A stretch of 15,946 bases of DNA. It comes from Acidobacteriota bacterium. Its GTDB lineage: Bacteria; Acidobacteriota; Terriglobia; Terriglobales; Acidobacteriaceae. Both the position numbers and the translations under genes were made by a program. Of this stretch, positions 2-15,875 are shown piece after piece (position 1 is the stretch's first letter; every line of letters starts with the position of its first letter). Location of the stretch: positions 1 through 15,946 of the forward strand of contig JAJZAL010000115.1 of the NCBI GenBank assembly GCA_021799405.1. Direction: 5' to 3'. A model generated the notes under the pieces. The model had not been told where the DNA came from and ran no database searches. It saw nothing but the letters and a program-made list of their open reading frames with translations.

Positions 2-415
2 ACACAAATCCGTTTTCATGCGGTGCTGGCGTTAGCTGCTCTCATTGCCGCTCCGGCGCTCGCGCAGGCGGGTGGCCAGTCTCGCCTCTATAATCCTTCT
101 ACTGAAACCACGCTGCAGGGCACGGTCAGCGCTGTGACGAATCCAACGGGAAGACGCGGATGGAGCGGTATCCACCTGAGCGTGCAAAGTGGCGGACAGA
201 CATACGATGTGCACGTCGGACCGTCAGCGTACGTGACCGACAGCGGGTTCGCATTTGCCACTGGCGACAAAATCCAGGTGACCGGATCAAAGATTCAGCT
301 CAATGGAGCTGATGCCCTGATCGCCCGCGAAATCACCAAGGACGGCAAAACACTTACTCTGCGCGACAAGCAAGGATTCCCGAAATGGTCTGGCGGACGA
401 TGGGCCGCGCAATGA
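2..415 (+). CDS. Small exported OB-fold-like protein, 5' end outside window
   Basis: The reading frame is open from the left edge, so the true start probably lies upstream. Visible residues begin TQIRFHAV and run into an Ala/Leu-rich hydrophobic stretch ending PALAQA, which is a signal peptide with an A-x-A-type cleavage site. A GTG at 23 is an internal alternative but would leave no basic n-region. The mature part (about 115 residues) has a short beta-rich pattern: LQGTV, then GIHLSV, YDVHVGP, GDKIQVTGSK, IAREITKDGKTLTLRD and a PKWSGG tail. This resembles small periplasmic OB-fold proteins that are often labelled DNA-binding without evidence. The export signal makes a periplasmic role more likely. 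No catalytic residues are visible and the function is unknown. The gene is followed by a stem-loop and appears independent of the next operon. Confidence 0.6.
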   Translation, partial: TQIRFHAVLALAALIAAPALAQAGGQSRLYNPSTETTLQGTVSAVTNPTGRRGWSGIHLSVQSGGQTYDVHVGPSAYVTDSGFAFATGDKIQVTGSKIQLNGADALIAREITKDGKTLTLRDKQGFPKWSGGRWAAQ

Positions 416-605: not shown

Positions 606-962
606 ATGAAGATTGCCATCAGTTCAAAAGGAGCAGCGCCCGAAAGCGAAGTTGATCCGCGCTTTGGCCGCGCCGCGTTTCTTCTCGTCTTTGATACGGA
701 AACCGGCTCGTGGAGCGCCCTCGACAACGCGGAAGCGCAGGAGCTTGCTCATGCCGCCGGCATTCGCGCCGCGGAGGCTGTATGCCGATCGGGTGCAAAA
801 ACTGTCCTCAGCGGGCACGTGGGGCCGAAAGCCCTGGCTGTTCTCGCAACAGGTGGTGTTCAGGTTTTCCATTGCGGCGCAATGAGTGCGCTCAGTGCAG
901 TGGAGGCTTTCCGCAACGGCCGCCTGGCAGAGCAGCAGGATTCCGGCAGCGCGCCGGCTTGA
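606..962 (+). CDS. NifX/NifB-type (ORP-like) iron-molybdenum cluster-binding protein, copy 1
   Basis: This 118-residue protein opens MKIAISSKG and has the family layout of small dinitrogenase FeMo-cofactor-type domains (NifX, NifB C-terminus, MTH1175, orange protein). There is an N-terminal beta strand, then a DPRFGRA segment near residues 17-23, FLLVFDTETG, a helix rich in Ala (AHAAGIRAAEAV), a strand with VLSGHVGPKAL and a final helix. ATG codons at 594 and 603 are also in frame. I prefer 606 because MKIAIS matches the family start and a GGA lies 7 nt upstream. In Desulfovibrio the homologous orange protein carries a Mo-Cu-sulfide cluster encoded with MinD-type ATPases. The same neighbours follow here, but the cofactor of this protein cannot be read from sequence. 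It is the first gene of the operon. Confidence 0.85.
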   Translation: MKIAISSKGAAPESEVDPRFGRAAFLLVFDTETGSWSALDNAEAQELAHAAGIRAAEAVCRSGAKTVLSGHVGPKALAVLATGGVQVFHCGAMSALSAVEAFRNGRLAEQQDSGSAPA

Positions 963-980
963 GAAGAAGGAGTTACGAAA

Positions 981-1253
981 ATGCCATTCATGGATGGAAC
1001 CGGGCCGTTGGGCAATGGGCCGGGCTCGGGACGTAGATTTGGGCAGTGCGCCGGAGCGCAGGCGGATTTAGGCTCTGCGACGCAACAGCGGCTGCAAGGC
1101 CGGGGAATGAGAATGCAGCGCCGGTTGAGAGGCCGCGCAGCCGCGGAGCAGATGACCGCGCTCGAACAGGAAGCAGGTTGGCTGGAAAGGCGCCTGGATT
1201 GGATCCGGCAACAGACGTCTGGTTTGGGCGGAAAGAGAGAGCAGCAATCATAA
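981..1253 (+). CDS. DUF5320-type Gly-rich small protein
   Basis: This 90-residue protein starts 18 nt after the previous stop, with a strong GAAGAAGGAG ribosome site. Its N-terminus, MPFMDGTGPLGNGPGSGRR, is the Gly/Pro-rich signature of DUF5320-type proteins (typically MPxGDGTGPxGxGPxTGR). The second half is charged and predicted helical (EQMTALEQEAGWLERRLDWIRQ), possibly a short coiled coil. Usual members have a Cys in the GxGxC segment, and here FGQCAG near residues 20-25 keeps it. Such proteins are usually encoded beside NifX-like proteins and Fe-S ATPases in anaerobes. Their biochemical role is not established, and I assign none beyond probable participation in the same metal-cluster system. 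Confidence 0.8.
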   Translation: MPFMDGTGPLGNGPGSGRRFGQCAGAQADLGSATQQRLQGRGMRMQRRLRGRAAAEQMTALEQEAGWLERRLDWIRQQTSGLGGKREQQS

Positions 1254-1304
1254 TGATGCCTGTCCGGTTTTCAGGCACAGAGTAAAGAAAGAGGATTTTT
1301 GCGC

Positions 1305-2153
1305 ATGATGCGCATTGCGGTGGCGAGCGGAAAGGGCGGAACCGGCAAGACCACGGTAGCAACGGGGCTTGCGCTCTATCTCTCGCGCCGCCAATCCGTC
1401 CACGTTATCGATTGCGATGTCGAAGCGCCCAACGCCGCGCTGCTGCTGCATCCGGCAATTTTTCTTGCTGGTCCGGTGATGCGTCCCGTGCCCGCGATTG
1501 ACGAGTCCCGGTGTGACCACTGCGGCAAGTGCAGTGATGCCTGCCGCTTCAACGCCATCGCCGTGACCGCATCCAGGGTGGTTCTCTTCCCTGAAATCTG
1601 TCATTCCTGCGGAGGATGCACTGAGGTCTGTCCGCGCGGAGCGATCACTGAGCGACCGCGGGCGATCGGAGAATTTGCCGATGGATCAGTCGGGAAGATC
1701 CGGTTCACCCAAGGATCGTTGAACGCGGGCGAAACCGCGACTGTCGCTCTGATTCGCGCCGTCAGGCAGATGGAGCGTGAGGCCGATGTCCTGCTCCTCG
1801 ATGCCCCGCCCGGCGCTAGTTGTCCGATGATCGCAGCCGCGGAAGACACCGATTGTGTTGTTCTAGTGACGGAGCCAACGCCGTTCGGTCTCAACGACCT
1901 GCGCATCGCGGCCGAGGCCGTCCGGCGGATGGATCTGCGCGCCGGCGTTGTCATCAACCGCGACGGCATCGGCGACGCTCGCGTGGACAGGTTCTGCGCG
2001 TCTGCCGGTCTTCCCGTTCTTGGACGGATCGCCGACGATCGTGCCATCGCTGAAGCGTACTCCCGTGGCGAGCATCCTTTCGAGACAGTGCCTGCCTTCC
2101 GCGCCGCCATGGCTGCAATTGCTCAATCACTGGGAGCAGAGGCATCGGCATGA
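1305..2153 (+). CDS. MinD-type P-loop ATPase with inserted ferredoxin domain, copy 1
   Basis: This 282-residue protein belongs to the MinD/Mrp/NifH-like ATPases. The deviant Walker A motif GKGGTGKT is at about residues 9-16. A two-cluster ferredoxin insert sits around residues 66-110, with CDHCGKCSDAC and CHSCGGCTEVCP. The Walker B-like DAPPG follows (LLLDAPPGASCP), then a VINRDGIGD strand in the usual nucleotide-base position. I start it at ATG 1305 because GAGGA lies about 9 nt upstream; ATG 1308 is equally possible, and a TTG at 1299 is less likely. The stop overlaps the start of the next gene (ATGA), so the two are translationally coupled. Orange-protein complexes of sulfate reducers contain two such ATPases. 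The likely role is ATP-driven assembly or redox handling of a metal-sulfur cluster. Confidence 0.9.
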   Translation: MMRIAVASGKGGTGKTTVATGLALYLSRRQSVHVIDCDVEAPNAALLLHPAIFLAGPVMRPVPAIDESRCDHCGKCSDACRFNAIAVTASRVVLFPEICHSCGGCTEVCPRGAITERPRAIGEFADGSVGKIRFTQGSLNAGETATVALIRAVRQMEREADVLLLDAPPGASCPMIAAAEDTDCVVLVTEPTPFGLNDLRIAAEAVRRMDLRAGVVINRDGIGDARVDRFCASAGLPVLGRIADDRAIAEAYSRGEHPFETVPAFRAAMAAIAQSLGAEASA

Positions 2154-3046
2154 AAGAGATTGTGGTCCTGAGCGGCAAGGGCGGCACTGGCAAAACCAGC
2201 CTCACCGCGGCATTTGCCGTCATGATGCGCAATGCTGTCATCGTCGACTGCGACGTGGATGCATCCAACCTGCATCTGCTGCTTAATCCACTCGTGCGGC
2301 AAAGCTACGACTTTCGTGGAAGCGCGAAGGCGCAGGTGGACGCCGCGATCTGCAACGGCTGCGGGGCCTGTATGGCAGCATGCCGCTTCGGTGCAATCCA
2401 TTTGAATGGGTGCGCATTCATCAATCCGATGCGCTGCGAGGGATGCGGTGTATGCGCGCGGCAATGTCCGCTGAACGCGATCTCATTGGAACGTCACGTC
2501 TGCGGCCGCTGGTTCATCTCCAGCACCCGCTACGGCTCCATGATTCATGCTTTTCTGGAACCAGGTGAGGAAAATTCCGGAAAGCTGGTGTCGGTCTTGC
2601 GGCAGTCAGCCAGGAAACTCGCTCGCCAGCAGGGCGCATCCTGGATTCTTGCGGATGGCCCGCCCGGAACCGGCTGCCCGGCGATCTCGTCGCTGACCGG
2701 AGCCGACTACACGGTGATGATCGCGGAGCCTTCTCTGTCCGGATTTGCCGATCTCCAGCGCGCGCTCAAACTCGCTGGCCACTTCGGCATTCCTACCGGC
2801 ATTGTCATCAACAAAGCGGACATCAATGCAGAAATCACAGCCCGGATTGAAGCATTTGCGCTGGAATCTGGCTGCGCAGTCCTGGGCCGGATCGACTACG
2901 ATCCCGTCTTTGTCCACTCCCAACTGAAAGCTGTTCCGGTCGTCGATGTCGCCGGCAATGAGTTGCGCTCCCGCCTTGAAAGGCTCTGGCGCGCCATCGA
3001 GGACGCAGTGCATGAACGCAGTTCTCCGTTGGCAACAATTCCATAA
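2150..3046 (+). CDS. MinD-type P-loop ATPase with inserted ferredoxin domain, copy 2
   Basis: This 298-residue paralogue of the preceding ATPase overlaps it by 4 nt, with an AGAGG ribosome site 7 nt before the ATG. Deviant Walker A GKGGTGKT lies at residues 9-16. The two [4Fe-4S] ligand sets are CNGCGACMAAC and CEGCGVCARQCP, at about residues 68-110. Walker B-like DGPPGTGCP follows, then IVINKADINAE. Both copies keep the catalytic and signature lysines, so both look active. Their side-by-side conservation suggests a heterodimer, since the family dimerises to close the ATP site. The C-terminal 20 residues are polar and differ from copy 1. It is most like the paired ATPases of ORP loci and is not a cell-division MinD, which lacks the ferredoxin insert. 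Confidence 0.9.
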   Translation: MKEIVVLSGKGGTGKTSLTAAFAVMMRNAVIVDCDVDASNLHLLLNPLVRQSYDFRGSAKAQVDAAICNGCGACMAACRFGAIHLNGCAFINPMRCEGCGVCARQCPLNAISLERHVCGRWFISSTRYGSMIHAFLEPGEENSGKLVSVLRQSARKLARQQGASWILADGPPGTGCPAISSLTGADYTVMIAEPSLSGFADLQRALKLAGHFGIPTGIVINKADINAEITARIEAFALESGCAVLGRIDYDPVFVHSQLKAVPVVDVAGNELRSRLERLWRAIEDAVHERSSPLATIP

Positions 3047-3073
3047 CCAGACTTTCAACGAAAGGAAAAATTC

Positions 3074-3418
3074 ATGCCCATGCGCATTGCAATTCCCGTG
3101 ACTGGCAACCTTCTTGAGCAACATTTTGGACACTGCGAGAAGTTCTTTTTCGCCGACATTGATCTCGCGACAAAGCAGGTGATCGCCACTGGGGAAACAC
3201 AGGCTCCCGAACACCAGCCCGGTCTTCTTCCACCATGGCTCAAGGAGCGCGGTGTGACCCACATCATAGCGGGCAACATGGGAGCTCGTGCACGCTCGTT
3301 ATTTCAGGAAGCCTCGATTGATGTCCTCACGGGCGCGCCCCCTGAGAGCGCTACGGAGCTTGTACGCCAGTATTTGGACGGATCGCTGGCCACCGGCGAG
3401 AACACCTGCGATCACTGA
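3074..3418 (+). CDS. NifX/NifB-type (ORP-like) cluster-binding protein, copy 2
   Basis: This 114-residue protein lies 27 nt after the second ATPase, behind an AAAGGAAAAA ribosome site. It begins MPMRIAIPVTGN and has EQHFGHCEKFFFADID at about residues 15-30. A HIIAGNMGARA strand/turn near residues 72-82 and a short acidic tail ending in TCDH follow. The FGHC segment replaces the FGRA of copy 1, and both His and Cys are possible soft-metal ligands. The fold is the NifX/MTH1175 type of alternating beta and alpha. It could carry the cluster or deliver it. Having two non-identical copies in one operon implies a division of labour, such as scaffold and carrier. A second in-frame ATG at 3080 gives MRIAIPV, which is also family-like. 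Confidence 0.85.
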   Translation: MPMRIAIPVTGNLLEQHFGHCEKFFFADIDLATKQVIATGETQAPEHQPGLLPPWLKERGVTHIIAGNMGARARSLFQEASIDVLTGAPPESATELVRQYLDGSLATGENTCDH

Positions 3419-3466: not shown

Positions 3467-5122
3467 ATGAGCAGGAAACGAGTGGTGATTGTCGGCGGCG
3501 TCGCGGGCGGGGCAACCTGCGCGGCGCGTTTGCGGCGGATGGATGAGAACGCGGAGATCCTTTTACTCGACCGCGGTCCCTATGTCTCCTTTGCCAATTG
3601 TGGTTTGCCTTACTACGTAGGAAACGTCATTCACGACGAGGCAAAACTGCTGCTGGCTACGCCCGCCTTATTTCGCGAGCGATTCAATATCGAAGTCCGC
3701 ACGTGCAATGAAGTCGTGAGCATCGACCGCGCGGCGCGCACCATCGCGGTTCATGATCTCGATACCGGACGCGAGTATCGCGAGCACTACGATGCTCTGG
3801 TGCTTTCACCCGGCTCCGCTCCGGTCCGTCCGCCGTGTTGCGGAATCGATCTGCCCGGCATCTTCACTCTGCGCAGTATCCCCGACAGCCGCGAGATAAG
3901 AACCTGGATCGATTCGAAAGACCCGCGCAAAGCCGTGGTGGTTGGCGGAGGCTTCATCGGGCTGGAGATGGCCGAGAACCTGGCGCATCGAGGCATTGCT
4001 GTGACCATCGTCGAGCTGGCGGATCAGATCATGCCGCCGCTCGACCGGGAGATGGCGGAGTATGCGCGCGAGCAACTCATCGCCCGCGGAATCCGCCTTC
4101 GCATGAGCGATGGCGTCGCATCCTTCGAGCAGCCGCCGAGTGGAGGCCTGATTGTGCGCACCCAGGGCGGGGCGGCGCTGGATGCGGATATCGTGGTGCT
4201 TGCGATCGGTGTGCGCCCTGAAGCGAAGCTCGCGCGCGAGGCAGGCCTGGAGATCGGCAAGCGGGGCGGCATTCGCGTCGATTCCCGGATGCGCACCAGC
4301 GACCCGCACATCTGGGCGGTTGGAGACGCTGTCGAAGTGCAAAACCGTCTCACTGGTCAATGGGAGCTGATTCCCCTGGCGGGGCCGGCGAATCGTCAGG
4401 GACGCGTGGCAGCCGACACGATCTGCGGGCGCGATGCGGAATTCGACGGTGTCCTGGCGACCGCGGTCTGTGGCTTCTTCGGCCTCACCGTGGCGCTCAC
4501 GGGCGCAACCGAAAAGTGCCTTCGCCGCGCCGGCATCGACGATTTTCAGTGTGTCTATCTGCATCCCAATCAGCATGTCAGCTATTACCCCAGCGCGCAT
4601 CCCATCCACATCAAGCTTGTCTTTCGCAAGAGTGACGGCCGCGTGCTGGGCGCGCAGGCCATTGGAGAAGCGGACGTGGCGCGTCGCATTGACGTGATCG
4701 CCACGGCTATTCAGATGAACGCCACGGTCTTCGATCTCGAAAATGCGGAGCTTTGCTATGCGCCCCAGTTTGGCGCCGCCAAAGATGCGGTGAATCTGGC
4801 CGGCATGGCTGCCGCCAACGTGCTGCGCGGAGATGTCGCGCTTGCCCCTTGGCAGGAATTAGACGATACGGACGCGTATATTGTGGATGTCCGCGAACCC
4901 CACGAGTTCCATAGGGATTCGGTCGATGGAGCCGTCAATATTCCGCTCGGCCAGTTACGGTCAAAGATGGCCGGCCTGCCGCATGACCGCGAGATTTGGG
5001 TCAGTTGCGGCATCGGCCAGCGCGCCTACTACGCATGCCGGATTCTGACCCAGCATGGTTTTCGCGCGCGCAGCCTTTCCGGAGGCTATCAGACCTATCG
5101 CGTCATGTATCCGCTGGAGTAA
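3467..5122 (+). CDS. CoA-disulfide reductase-like flavoprotein fused to a rhodanese domain (CoADR-RHD)
   Basis: This 551-residue protein starts 48 nt after the previous stop with a GGAGAA ribosome site. The FAD-binding strand VVIVGGVAGGATCAA is at residues 6-20. The single catalytic-type cysteine C45 lies in SFANCGLPYY, the CoADR/NADH-oxidase pattern. The NAD(P)-binding GGGFIGLEMA is near residue 160, the second FAD contact WAVGDAVEV near residue 285, and a dimerisation domain follows. From about residue 460 there is a complete rhodanese domain (VDVREPHEF, then active-site loop CGIGQR with C514). Family members reduce CoA-disulfide, CoA-persulfide or polysulfide with NAD(P)H. The fused rhodanese points to persulfide chemistry and so to sulfane-sulfur supply or detoxification beside the metal-cluster genes. 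The enzyme is cytoplasmic and both active cysteines are intact. Confidence 0.92.
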   Translation: MSRKRVVIVGGVAGGATCAARLRRMDENAEILLLDRGPYVSFANCGLPYYVGNVIHDEAKLLLATPALFRERFNIEVRTCNEVVSIDRAARTIAVHDLDTGREYREHYDALVLSPGSAPVRPPCCGIDLPGIFTLRSIPDSREIRTWIDSKDPRKAVVVGGGFIGLEMAENLAHRGIAVTIVELADQIMPPLDREMAEYAREQLIARGIRLRMSDGVASFEQPPSGGLIVRTQGGAALDADIVVLAIGVRPEAKLAREAGLEIGKRGGIRVDSRMRTSDPHIWAVGDAVEVQNRLTGQWELIPLAGPANRQGRVAADTICGRDAEFDGVLATAVCGFFGLTVALTGATEKCLRRAGIDDFQCVYLHPNQHVSYYPSAHPIHIKLVFRKSDGRVLGAQAIGEADVARRIDVIATAIQMNATVFDLENAELCYAPQFGAAKDAVNLAGMAAANVLRGDVALAPWQELDDTDAYIVDVREPHEFHRDSVDGAVNIPLGQLRSKMAGLPHDREIWVSCGIGQRAYYACRILTQHGFRARSLSGGYQTYRVMYPLE

Positions 5123-5205: not shown

Positions 5206-5640
5206 ATGCTGCAAGAGACGGAGGAAATCGCGGCGCAGCCAAGGCTCAGCGCCCTATCGCAATCGTCGTGCTTTGTCTGCGGGTGCGATAACCCGCGCGG
5301 ACTGCATTTGCGGTTCGAACAAACCAAGCCTGGAGAGATGACCGCCCCATGGACTCCGGACGCCGATATGGAAGGCTTCCGCGGCATCATTCACGGAGGA
5401 ATCATAAGCACTGTCTTGGACGAGTCCATGGCGAAGGCCGTGGCAGCCTCTGGACTGGAAGCGCTGACGGCCGAGCTGCGCATTCGCCTGCGCCAGCATG
5501 TCACCACCGGCAGCGCCATGCGCGTGCGCGGATGGATCGAGAGCCGGAATAAACGCATGATCAAGACAGAAGCGGTGCTGAACGGACCCGGCGGAACGGA
5601 ATTTGCTCACGCTTGGGCGATCTTCCTCGTGCTGAAGTAA
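5206..5640 (+). CDS. PaaI/YbgC-type hotdog-fold thioesterase
   Basis: This 144-residue protein is a single hotdog domain. CFVCGCDNPRGLHLRF (about residues 22-37) is the N-terminal signature of a common PaaI subgroup. The core motif is FRGIIHGGIISTVLDESMA, with H63-G64-G65 and the acidic pair D72-E73 expected at the acyl-CoA thioester site. The frame is open upstream to 4996, but that part overlaps the preceding gene. ATG 5206 has a GAGAGGG ribosome site 4-10 nt before it and begins the family-like part. The natural acyl-CoA is unknown. As the last gene of the operon after CoADR-RHD, it may deal with CoA thioesters, or it may simply be co-transcribed. Confidence 0.85.
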   Translation: MLQETEEIAAQPRLSALSQSSCFVCGCDNPRGLHLRFEQTKPGEMTAPWTPDADMEGFRGIIHGGIISTVLDESMAKAVAASGLEALTAELRIRLRQHVTTGSAMRVRGWIESRNKRMIKTEAVLNGPGGTEFAHAWAIFLVLK

Positions 5641-12901: not shown

Positions 12902-14743
12902 CTATTCAAAAACTTCACGTTCTTTCCGATCCAAGGCCTCCATGGTGATGGCCTGCGTTGGGCACCGCTGGGCGCAAAGGCCGCATCGGATGCACTTTTC
13001 TTCGTTCTTGATGATGGCGCCAGCCTGGCCTGCCCGCAGTTGTGCGGCAGGCACTCCGTAGCGCCGCTCGATCAGCGCTTCGTAGCGCTCATCGCCGCTC
13101 ACTTGAACCAGATCCACCAGACGCAAACAACTCTCAGGACACACATCCACGCAGCCCGCGCAGAGAATGCATTTCGACCCGTCGAAGATCGTGTTCACCT
13201 GGCAGTTGAGGCAGCGAAGCCCTTCGGCGCGTCCCTGTTCCTCGTCAAAGCCCAACTCCACTTCCGCGATGCCGATCCGCCGGTTCGCCGCCAGGACCGG
13301 CATCTTCTGCCGGGGAATGGAGAGATAACCGCTCGGCATCCGCCAGTTGGGCAGAATGCGGAATCGGCTAAGCACCGTCTTCTTCGTCTTGCCGCTCAGA
13401 TAGACATGAATGGAGCGCGCCGAGCGGTGGCCATTGGCAACAGCCTCCACCAGAATGCGCGGTCCGAAGGCGACGTCGCCGCCCGCAAAGACACCGGGCG
13501 CCGTAGTCATCAAGTCTTCATTGATCTTCAGAATTCCGCGCGGCGTCGCCTGTACTCCATCTTCGTTTTGCAGGTATGACAAATCCGCCTGCTGGCCGAT
13601 GGCCAGGATCACGCTATCGCACGGAATAATCTTTTCTTCATCACTGAACGCCGGATTGAAGCGTCCCTTCTCATCGAAGACGCTGAGGCAGCGGCGAACC
13701 TTGAGGCCTGTAACGATCCCGTTCTCGCCTACAACCTCCTTTGGCCCCCATCCATTGTCGAGCACAATGCCTTCGTGCTCGGCCTCTTCGACCTCGCCCT
13801 TCCATGCCGGCATCTGCGAGCGCGATTCCAGGCTGACCATGTTTACCCGTTCGGCGCCCGAGCGCATGGCCAAACGCGCCGCGTCGAGCGCGGGCTGCAA
13901 GCTCTTGTCCGCCTCGGCTGAATCAGCCAAATCTCCAGCCGTCTCCTGCACCAGGCGTACTGCCGCGCGCGCCACGTCGATCGCCACATTGCCGCCGCCC
14001 ACCACCACTACGCGCTTGCCCAGCTCGATCTCAAAACCAAGGTTGACGTTGATCAGAAAATCGATGCCGTTGTAAACGCCCGTGAAATGAGCGCCGGGAA
14101 TATTTAACTCGCGGCCCTTGTTGAGGCCCGTCGACAGCAGAACCGCATCGTACTTCGACCGCAGCTCGCTGAAGGAGATGTCCCGCCCCACCGTCACGCG
14201 CGTGTGCAGCGTGACTCCCATGGCGAGGATGTTGTCCACCTCCATCTTGATGATTTCCCTGGGAAGACGGAACTGCGGAATGCCCAGGTACAGCATTCCA
14301 CCGGGGACGGGAGCGGATTCAAATACCTCTACCGAGTAACCCAGCAGCGCCAGATCGTGCGCGCACGTCAGGCCGCACACTCCGGCGCCCACGATCGCCA
14401 CACGCTTGTTCCGCTTGGGAGCGGGAGGCAGCGCCTTTCTTTCAGGGTCGTGGCCCATGCCCAGGTTGTGGCGTTCGGTCGCATAGCGCTTCAACGCGCA
14501 GATCGCGACGGGTTCATCGATCTTGCCGCGCCGGCAGTTGTCCTCGCAGGGATGCGCGCAAATCCTCCCCAGAACGTAGGCGAATGGATTGGGCGCGCGC
14601 GCCAAAAGGTATGCCTCTTCGTCTTTCGAAATTCCGATGGCCTGAACGTATCGCCCGCATTCGGTATGGATCGGACAGGCGGACTGACAGGGAATATTCT
14701 TCTCGAAATACTCCCGGTCCGGGACTGTAACGGAATAACTCAT
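12902..14743 (-). CDS. GltD-like NAD(P)/FAD oxidoreductase with C-terminal 2x[4Fe-4S] ferredoxin domain
   Basis: This 613-residue protein starts at ATG 14743, with AGGA 6 nt upstream; the frame runs on to 14857 without a better site. The N-terminal Cys-rich domain of the glutamate-synthase small-subunit type has C19, C23, C29 and C62, C66, C70 (CQSACPIHTEC and ICAHPCEDNC). The FAD strand is VAIVGAGVCG (G119, G121, G124), and the NAD(P) strand VVVVGGGNVAIDVARA follows. IFAGGD-like FAD contact GVFAGGDVAFG is near residue 465. The C-terminus has CILCAGCVDVCPESC and CIRCGLCAQRCP for two clusters. No glutamate synthase large subunit is adjacent. It sits directly before Rieske, so it probably links NAD(P)H to the quinone/Rieske complex on the cytoplasmic side. 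A link to Nfn-type bifurcating partners is possible but not shown. Confidence 0.88.
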   Translation of the reverse strand: MSYSVTVPDREYFEKNIPCQSACPIHTECGRYVQAIGISKDEEAYLLARAPNPFAYVLGRICAHPCEDNCRRGKIDEPVAICALKRYATERHNLGMGHDPERKALPPAPKRNKRVAIVGAGVCGLTCAHDLALLGYSVEVFESAPVPGGMLYLGIPQFRLPREIIKMEVDNILAMGVTLHTRVTVGRDISFSELRSKYDAVLLSTGLNKGRELNIPGAHFTGVYNGIDFLINVNLGFEIELGKRVVVVGGGNVAIDVARAAVRLVQETAGDLADSAEADKSLQPALDAARLAMRSGAERVNMVSLESRSQMPAWKGEVEEAEHEGIVLDNGWGPKEVVGENGIVTGLKVRRCLSVFDEKGRFNPAFSDEEKIIPCDSVILAIGQQADLSYLQNEDGVQATPRGILKINEDLMTTAPGVFAGGDVAFGPRILVEAVANGHRSARSIHVYLSGKTKKTVLSRFRILPNWRMPSGYLSIPRQKMPVLAANRRIGIAEVELGFDEEQGRAEGLRCLNCQVNTIFDGSKCILCAGCVDVCPESCLRLVDLVQVSGDERYEALIERRYGVPAAQLRAGQAGAIIKNEEKCIRCGLCAQRCPTQAITMEALDRKEREVFE

Positions 14744-14820
14744 GCGTTCCTCATTCTGGCCGTTTCTTGGCGGTAGTGGTTCAGACCGTTGACCCAAAGC
14801 TGGGTTGGTTGGAAATAAGT

Positions 14821-14851
14821 CCCCGGCAAGCCGGCCCAACGCTCGCCGGGG
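14821..14851 (-). terminator. GC-rich stem-loop between the cytochrome c and GltD-like genes
   Basis: CCCCGGC (14821-14827) pairs perfectly with GCCGGGG (14845-14851), with a 17-nt loop. Read on the minus strand it follows the monohaem cytochrome stop by about 35 nt and is followed by ACTTATTTCC. A second small hairpin (ACCCA/TGGGT, 14800-14813) lies next to it. It may act as an attenuator or RNA-processing site that lowers expression of the downstream respiratory genes relative to the cytochromes. Confidence 0.4.
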
Positions 14852-14886
14852 TTTCAAGTATTACTTCAATTCCAGACAGCCACTTG

Positions 14887-15291
14887 CTACTGTTGCGCCT
14901 GCAGCTTCTGGATCTCCTCATCCGAAAGCGCCTTGTAGAATTTCGACGGATTCTTGTCCTTGCGCGTCTGCTGGTCGTACCACAGGAACTCGAAAATCTC
15001 CTTGCCCTGGGCGTTGGTGATGCCCGAGTTTGGCTTGTGCATCATACGTTTGACGTACTGCTCCCACTCCATCCTCGTCATCGTCGTGTTGATAGGCCGC
15101 GCGATGGTGTGGCATTGAGAACACTTGTTCACAAACAGCTTGTATGCCTGTTGTTGCTCCGGCGGATACTTGGAGACATTGATTGTGGATGGCCCCTTAT
15201 CCTGCGGAAGTACGACGTTCTTGGTCTGCGCTGCCAGAAAAAGCGGCGCGCCTAAAAGTGCGACTGCGATCCATTGAATCGACTTATGCAT
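14887..15291 (-). CDS. Monohaem cytochrome c, copy 2 of a tandem pair
   Basis: This 134-residue exported protein has its start at ATG 15291, with GAGAGGTGG just upstream; the GTG 6 nt earlier is less likely. A signal peptide runs over about residues 1-22 (hydrophobic core WIAVALLGAPLFLAAQ). CSQCH at residues 57-61 binds haem c, and a MxxKP-type segment (M83 in RMMHKP) is a candidate sixth ligand. It matches the next upstream gene in the block KYPPEQQQAYKLF before the haem motif and in the IFEFL strand. It is separated from the GltD-like gene by 143 nt with stem-loops. It is a likely soluble or loosely membrane-bound electron carrier for the bc-type complex encoded downstream. Confidence 0.85.
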   Translation of the reverse strand: MHKSIQWIAVALLGAPLFLAAQTKNVVLPQDKGPSTINVSKYPPEQQQAYKLFVNKCSQCHTIARPINTTMTRMEWEQYVKRMMHKPNSGITNAQGKEIFEFLWYDQQTRKDKNPSKFYKALSDEEIQKLQAQQ

Positions 15292-15332
15292 TTCCACCTC
15301 TCTTTACCTCTTTGCCCGAATGCCTGGCATGA

Positions 15333-15500: not shown

Positions 15501-15875
15501 TCACCAATTGTCCTTCGGCGGGTGAGCATGATAGTAGTTCAGGAATTCGATAATTCGCTCCGCCTGCCGGTCATTGAAATCCGCCGCCGGCTTCGCCTGC
15601 ATCACATAGACCCAATGCTTGGCCGTGGCGGGAGTGTCCGTTTGGCTTAACGCCCGGTTCAGGGTATGGCACTCAGAGCACGTATATCTGAACGTCTTGT
15701 ATGCTCGTTGAATATTGGCCGGATATGTAGAAACATCGATCGGCGCGTCCTTTTGGTTCCCGGTATAGGTGCCACCGTAAAATTGGGCATGTGCTGCCGT
15801 GCCGAGCATTCCCGCCACTAACAACAACCCCGCCATCCGCACTGCAATCATCCACGAAAATCTCTTAGGCTGCAT
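15501..15875 (-). CDS. Monohaem cytochrome c, copy 1 of a tandem pair
   Basis: This 124-residue exported protein starts at ATG 15875 after a strong AAGGAGGAAGTAT ribosome site. The signal peptide runs to about residue 30, ending GTAAHA before QF. The haem motif is CSECH at residues 66-70, and M92 in VMQAKP is the likely axial Met. It shares the YPANIQRAYKTF and IIEFL blocks with the downstream copy, and both keep an MxxKP motif, so they are diverged duplicates. The last four residues are KDNW. It sits directly after the likely outer-membrane protein, which suggests periplasmic electron transfer between the inner-membrane complex and another partner. The partner is not in the window. Confidence 0.85.
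   Translation of the reverse strand: MQPKRFSWMIAVRMAGLLLVAGMLGTAAHAQFYGGTYTGNQKDAPIDVSTYPANIQRAYKTFRYTCSECHTLNRALSQTDTPATAKHWVYVMQAKPAADFNDRQAERIIEFLNYYHAHPPKDNW

Follow-up and report, generated by a model that had tools for sequence, protein, structure and literature searches.

To our knowledge, no job is known for the rare natural molybdenum-copper (Mo-Cu) sulfide cluster carried by the orange protein (ORP). The closest described system is the ORP complex of Desulfovibrio vulgaris Hildenborough (Orp3, Orp4, Orp5, Orp8, Orp9), which is sigma-54-dependent and encoded by two divergent operons. Orp3, Orp4 and Orp8 co-purify, and MrpORP (Orp9) passes them iron-sulfur (Fe-S) clusters in vitro; ORP is described as holding its Mo-Cu-sulfide cluster non-covalently and its family member IssA as binding thioferrate, and the Di-Nase domain of MrpORP was assigned a 3Fe-4S cluster, for which more work was called for (PMC6345978). 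The locus considered here lies in a 15,946-nucleotide stretch of DNA from an Acidobacteriota bacterium (GCA_021799405.1, contig JAJZAL010000115.1; the whole stretch is called the window). Five of its genes, to judge from their profile matches, almost certainly form a genuine ORP locus. We found that ORP operons recur beside a persulfide reductase gene, as this one does, and the reductase is in our opinion a fairly likely working partner of the ORP system.

The five genes are consecutive, all on the plus strand and tightly packed between positions 603 and 3418, as a sequence-only reading of this DNA had claimed, and profile searches agree with its naming of two NifX/ORP-like small proteins, a DUF5320 gene and two dicluster MinD-type ATPases. 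The ORP/Orp8-type small protein (603-962, starting at the ATG of position 603 or 606) carries a Nitro_FeMo-Co domain (PF02579, 61.5 bits) and the motif VDPRFGR; its best solved match is D. gigas ORP (2wfb, 74 bits, E 8e-20), ahead of MTH1175 (51 bits). It is followed by the DUF5320 protein (981-1253; PF17253, 42.4 bits for a cut-off of 27), by the Orp3/Orp4-like ATPase 1 (1305-2153; the listed open reading frame (ORF) opens at TTG 1299, the ATG being at 1305) and ATPase 2 (2150-3046), and by a second small protein of the Di-Nase type (3074-3418; PF02579, 65.1 bits). Both small proteins and DUF5320 score above the Pfam cut-offs. Both ATPases keep the P-loop GKGGTGKT and two CxxCxxCxxxC motifs for 4Fe-4S clusters, and show CbiA/ParA-type matches and two Fer4 stretches each. 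The resemblance to the Desulfovibrio operon is borne out by profile and by the D. gigas ORP and MrpORP matches, as the ORP-type small protein, the two ATPases with two 4Fe-4S motifs each and the Di-Nase domain of Orp9 are shared with D. vulgaris.

The reductase gene (3467-5122, plus strand) encodes a pyridine-nucleotide-disulfide reductase with a C-terminal rhodanese domain, an architecture common to Npsr and the coenzyme A (CoA)-disulfide reductases, with a Cys in SFANCG and another in the rhodanese loop SCGIGQR. It reaches 471.9 bits against TIGR03385, under the curated cut-off of 578.8, and the rhodanese domain appears to fit Npsr better than the CoA-disulfide reductase equivalog. Relatives with a rhodanese domain use NADH to reduce persulfides and polysulfides (PMC7969121); the accessible text of that source does not tie Npsr to an ORP locus, and the activity of the window protein is predicted. 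The sequence-only reading had rightly named a persulfide-type flavoprotein and a respiratory bc operon as the next neighbours; the latter is on the opposite strand, past an alpha-glucan phosphorylase-type gene.

The ATPase 2 profile matches 58/395 sampled Acidobacteriota at E 1e-30, and linkage of the reductase was examined in 59 Acidobacteriota ORP genomes, namely 57 of these 58 (G138 was left out because of its fragment) together with G026 and G028. At E 1e-70 there were 35 reductase places in 22 of the 59 genomes. Eight of the 35, spread over 7 genomes, are no more than 6 kb from an ORP ATPase 2, for 0.16 expected from genome sizes (P ~1e-11; related genomes are not independent). All 8 linked reductases belong to the 23 matches that span the rhodanese domain; the 12 that fall short of it include no linked one (Fisher p 0.03). 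Also, a weaker reductase homologue, under the E 1e-70 cut, stands beside the ORP locus of G033. We found no paper linking ORP loci to such a reductase in the open-licence literature.

The ORP operon probably runs on through this reductase and a 4HBT thioesterase-type gene (5212-5640, plus strand; PF03061, 24.3 bits for a cut-off of 20.6), the probable last gene of the operon, because all seven recur in unchanged order in G644, a genome from a different family. The seven window genes are on one strand between 603 and 5640, with gaps of 18, 51, -4, 27, 48 and 89 bases; in G644 the gap from the Di-Nase gene to the reductase is about 1.15 kb and may hold one more gene. Identity between G644 and the window is 72% for the reductase, 60% for the thioesterase and 55% for ATPase 2. 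The attached reductase and thioesterase set the window locus apart from the D. vulgaris complex. Moreover, its genes form one run and not two divergent operons, and it has a DUF5320 gene, a candidate equivalent of Orp5. Whereas D. vulgaris ORP is sigma-54-dependent, no sigma-54 activator was found among the window genes scanned, and the sigma-54-like site TGG-N8-TTGC has 5 matches in the window for 3.4 expected, none in the gaps of the gene run. With matches near expectation and none in the gaps, a sigma-54 promoter for the run was rejected. In two related genomes (G019, G028), a sigma-54 activator with a PAS domain stands beside the ORP genes, and D. vulgaris likewise has its own activator.

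Loci of this type are standard, widespread and common to many oxygen-avoiding microbes. We compared 86 loci, namely the window, 5 related genomes and 80 named loci, these being the best 80 of 561 confirmed ATPase 2 relatives in named genomes; many loci are cut by contig ends. The named relatives come from Planctomycetota, Thermodesulfobacteriota, Myxococcota, Chloroflexota, Bacillota, Methanosarcinales, Kiritimatiellota and others. The same gene set recurs across these neighbourhoods, ATPase 1 being present in 81, ORP8 in 73, Di-Nase in 65, DUF5320 in 37 and all five genes in 28. A reductase of at least 250 bits occurs in 18 loci (15/80 named, G033, the window and G001), which include genera of several phyla. 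An Mrp-like NTPase ORF was present in 38/89 loci.

Judged from sequence, the two small proteins differ in kind, one being of the ORP/Orp8 type and the other of the MrpORP Di-Nase type. For the latter the match to ORP is weak (20.9 bits) and that to 1t3v/1o13 stronger (40.6 bits); it aligns at 112 bits with positions 265-365, the C-terminal part, of the MrpORP profile NF041136. It corresponds to the C-terminal domain of MrpORP as a gene of its own; whereas D. vulgaris Orp9 has the Mrp NTPase and Di-Nase in one protein, the window gene is without the NTPase domain, and hence far below the family cut-off of 450. Its HFGHCE motif, proline-rich PEHQPGLLP stretch and terminal CDH are named features of the Di-Nase domain (PMC6345978). 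Among the Di-Nase genes of the compared loci (n = 66), HFGHC was seen in 53, terminal CDH in 44 and the full C-X-HFGHCE in 9. The stand-alone gene was considered as a novelty and rejected as such, since the separate form is the common one: Di-Nase sits in an ORF of more than 250 amino acids in 6/65 loci having it. The MrpORP-type NTPase function may be supplied from elsewhere in the genome, for example by a separate Mrp-type NTPase such as that of G001 (285 bits, contig C32). Elsewhere, a third and very divergent Nitro_FeMo-Co protein often precedes DUF5320 in ORP loci (L044:7026-7670, 27.5 bits for a cut-off of 26.3; similar weak matches in L046, L055, L061, L064, L097 and others); none was seen in the window.

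For the model of ATPase 2 (predicted local distance difference test, pLDDT, 91), MinD, FlhG and NifH chains were within the best 50 fold matches. A large protein search gave 7,855 relatives of ATPase 2 at E 1e-60 among 7,999 candidates, with identities of 78% and downwards among the 120 matches listed. A FastTree phylogeny was built from 227 rows, that is, 112 ATPase 2 rows minus one very long row, and 116/119 listed relatives, three having been dropped for length. It places the window ATPase 2 in a 75-row clade nested in an 81-row clade, with support of 99 each (FastTree only), and, within the portion of the tree examined, apart from the named loci and from the remaining Acidobacteriota loci. 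In an earlier quick tree the window stood on a long branch (1.31 versus a median of 0.35); this branch shortened, and a supported clade was obtained, because relatives from the large search were added. The other genus-sample loci (G019, G026, G028, G033) group elsewhere, with G345. Trees of the remaining locus genes were likewise made with FastTree only. Since the window clade is distinct, with its genus-mates elsewhere and G644 close, the Terriglobia sample, as the ATPase 2 tree places its members, hosts at least two ORP lineages, which were possibly acquired by transfer.

Of the genomes compared, the one nearest to the window is G001, which shares 75% of sampled 31-mers. Six of the seven locus genes are 98.7-100% identical there and DUF5320 is also in place. 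G001 is a metagenome-assembled genome (MAG) of 340 contigs, 99% complete and 2% contaminated. It has dsrA (597 bits) and aprA (801 bits), as well as dsrB, dsrM, dsrK and dsrP above the cut-offs; a CobB-type amidase and a further dsrK-like gene are also present, and all of these are on contigs other than the ORP contig C2. A TGA in the dsrA match is the gene's own stop codon, the match extending 3 bases beyond the ORF (86-1303). aprA was also present in G019 and G033, and was not found in G026, G028 and G345. Thus, the complete ORP operon in the window is very probably that of a dsr/apr-bearing acidobacterium, of a class sampled as Terriglobia, and from the dsr and apr genes of the nearest genome we infer an anaerobe-type host. 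The sequence-only reading had also noted the lack of a nif gene near the locus; this stands, and none of the 6 related genomes searched, G001 included, had a PF00148 match, so that a nitrogenase link was rejected. Acidobacteria from peatland that combine dsr genes with an aerobic respiratory chain have been described (PMC6018796), and for one of them a switch between sulfate and oxygen reduction was inferred from transcripts (PMC10564751). The main text of the former, as available, contains neither "orange protein" nor "orp", and the available text of the latter has no "orange protein" and "orp" once.

The association between ORP and dsr is real but partial, and without dependence. All Fisher tests given here are uncorrected for relatedness. 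The window ATPase 2 protein matches 10/399 class-sample genomes at E 1e-60, and dsrA is over the cut-off in 20 of the 399: it occurs in 5 of the 10 ORP genomes (G001, G019, G033, G540, G766) versus 15/389 others (p 4e-5, odds ratio 25). For the phylum the figures at E 1e-60 are 9/58 ORP genomes versus 18/337 others (odds ratio 3.3, p 0.009). For the genus sample they are 4/5 versus 2/54 (p 1.6e-4) when G026, whose partial dsrA lies at a contig edge, is counted as a carrier, and p is 0.003 when it is not. A strict dependence was rejected: 49/58 ORP genomes are without dsrA (E 1e-60) and 18/27 dsrA genomes are without ORP.

Upstream of the run lies a possible partner, a PF26390 (MamS-like) protein with a signal-peptide-like start (2-415, plus strand, cut by the window edge). 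It scores 46.7 bits against NF040991, under the cut-off of 200; the PF26390 label sits on its relatives, and its model (pLDDT 84) is predicted to have an OB (oligonucleotide/oligosaccharide-binding) fold, the best match (E 3e-4, template modelling (TM) score 0.44) being at fold level only. Among 38 hand-chosen genomes, 12 with ORP and 26 without, it occurs at 13 places in 9 genomes. Six places lie at most 2 kb from ORP ATPase 2 (G001, G019, G026, G028, G540, G766); in the other six ORP genomes no copy is linked. The two carriers that lack ORP, G163 and G205, both have dsrA, the ORP-free dsrA genomes G036 and G794 gave no match, and a search of the 80 named loci for this protein at E 1e-4 was negative.

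The explanation that we consider the best overall, and rather more credible than not, is an ORP operon that, with the reductase, acts as a loader of metal-sulfide clusters, driven by ATP and dependent on Fe-S. The gene identities and the linkage are observed; to the loading mechanism itself we give a little less than even confidence. The two ATPases would pair up, and the pair would carry four 4Fe-4S clusters, whose maturation would fall to an Mrp carrier encoded outside the locus. By a NifH-like logic the pair would deliver ATP-gated low-potential electrons, with which the ORP-type protein would have its metal-sulfide cluster built or reloaded. A second cluster carrier or a docking factor is the probable part of the Di-Nase protein, and the reductase would convert persulfide sulfur to sulfide nearby, feeding the cluster or keeping sulfane sulfur off it. 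ATP-gated electron delivery and cluster loading seem likeliest because of the MinD/NifH-type fold, the four 4Fe-4S clusters and the cluster-carrying small protein; the predicted NifH-type fold matches of ATPase 2 and, by analogy, the Orp co-purification in D. vulgaris (PMC6345978) are consistent with them. More speculatively, the ORP system could use ATP to manufacture metal-sulfide clusters from a sulfur supply of its own, having the rhodanese persulfide reductase as partner across phyla and the PF26390 protein as partner in Terriglobia. In acidobacteria able to change between oxygen and sulfate respiration, it may serve to rebuild or shield sulfur-cluster enzymes during the change. Several points weigh against this explanation. 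We know of no organism in which the function of ORP is settled. The chemistry of the mechanism is inferential, and most of the 86 loci have no reductase within the DNA compared. Also, the first Cys of C-X-HFGHCE is replaced by Glu in the window Di-Nase gene, the dsr and apr genes of the host are deduced from a MAG in which they lie off the ORP contig, and published thinking on ORP leans towards cell division (PMC6345978, PMC4672049).

That published role, proposed for D. vulgaris, would have the MinD-type ATPases place the septum or the chromosome while the clusters and small proteins report redox state, for example to stop division on oxygen. The MinD-like fold predicted for ATPase 2 agrees with it, as does the strongest amphipathic 11-mer of that protein (of 288), which is at its C-terminus and resembles the membrane anchor of MinD. 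However, the C-terminal stretch of ATPase 1 is less strong (rank 12 of 272), the neighbours of the locus handle sulfur (reductase, rhodanese) and are not division genes, and the paper cited for it itself presents the role as a hypothesis awaiting confirmation; we regard it as rather unlikely here. Alternatively, the small proteins could be a metal store or a means of detoxification, holding Mo, Cu or Fe sulfides under sulfidic conditions while the ATPases and reductase keep them loaded and reduced. The Mo-Cu-sulfide cluster of ORP and the thioferrate of IssA (PMC6345978) speak for such a store, but two cluster-bearing ATPases would be costly for it, and the scanned window genes yielded neither a transporter nor a regulator for metals, which leaves it fairly improbable. 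The cluster-loading operon with its reductase remains our preferred explanation, and the adjacency of the reductase points the ORP question towards sulfur handling.

As to the host, the sequence-only reading saw an ORP system that builds an uncharacterised cluster outside a sulfate-reducer context, in a different lifestyle. No sulfate-reduction gene is found among the window genes scanned, and hosts of ORP without dsrA do exist, because G644 and G345 carry related loci and have no dsrA match at E 1e-60. Nevertheless, the nearest genome has the dsr and apr genes, and orp genes have been described as specific to anaerobes in general, beyond Desulfovibrio (PMC3897727), so that this claim finds no support for the present host and now appears highly improbable. 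The dsr and apr genes of G001 could in turn be contaminants from binning, and the link between ORP and dsr in Terriglobia could reflect only shared ancestry or a shared anoxic habitat. The spread of dsr, apr and ORP genes over different contigs and the lack of correction for relatedness leave room for this, but G001 is rated just 2% contaminated, and G019 and G033 (100% complete; 1% and 0% contaminated) also have ORP, dsrA and aprA; we therefore judge it very unlikely. With ORP loci common in Acidobacteriota, dsr-associated in Terriglobia and reductase-adjacent, the reductase offers a concrete, testable partner for the ORP question.

Other genes were seen near ORP loci. Clustered neighbours in the 86 loci (one annotated representative each) were radical SAM (22), metallo-beta-lactamase (21), sigma-54 activator (20), zinc ribbon (12), ARMT1-like (10), thioesterase (10) and TrmO (7) proteins. 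A DUF364 gene ("putative heavy-metal chelation") stands beside the ORP genes in G019 and G028 (L044:4277-5047, L047:10270-11061). A plasmid origin of the window was rejected, with no DNA match and 3 distant protein matches, all below 40% identity. Towards the far end of the window, two small CxxCH heme-motif proteins on the minus strand (14887-15297 and 15501-15875; no Pfam match at E 1e-6) adjoin a GltD-like Fe-S flavoprotein (12902-14857) and a run of Rieske, cytochrome b and cytochrome c genes.

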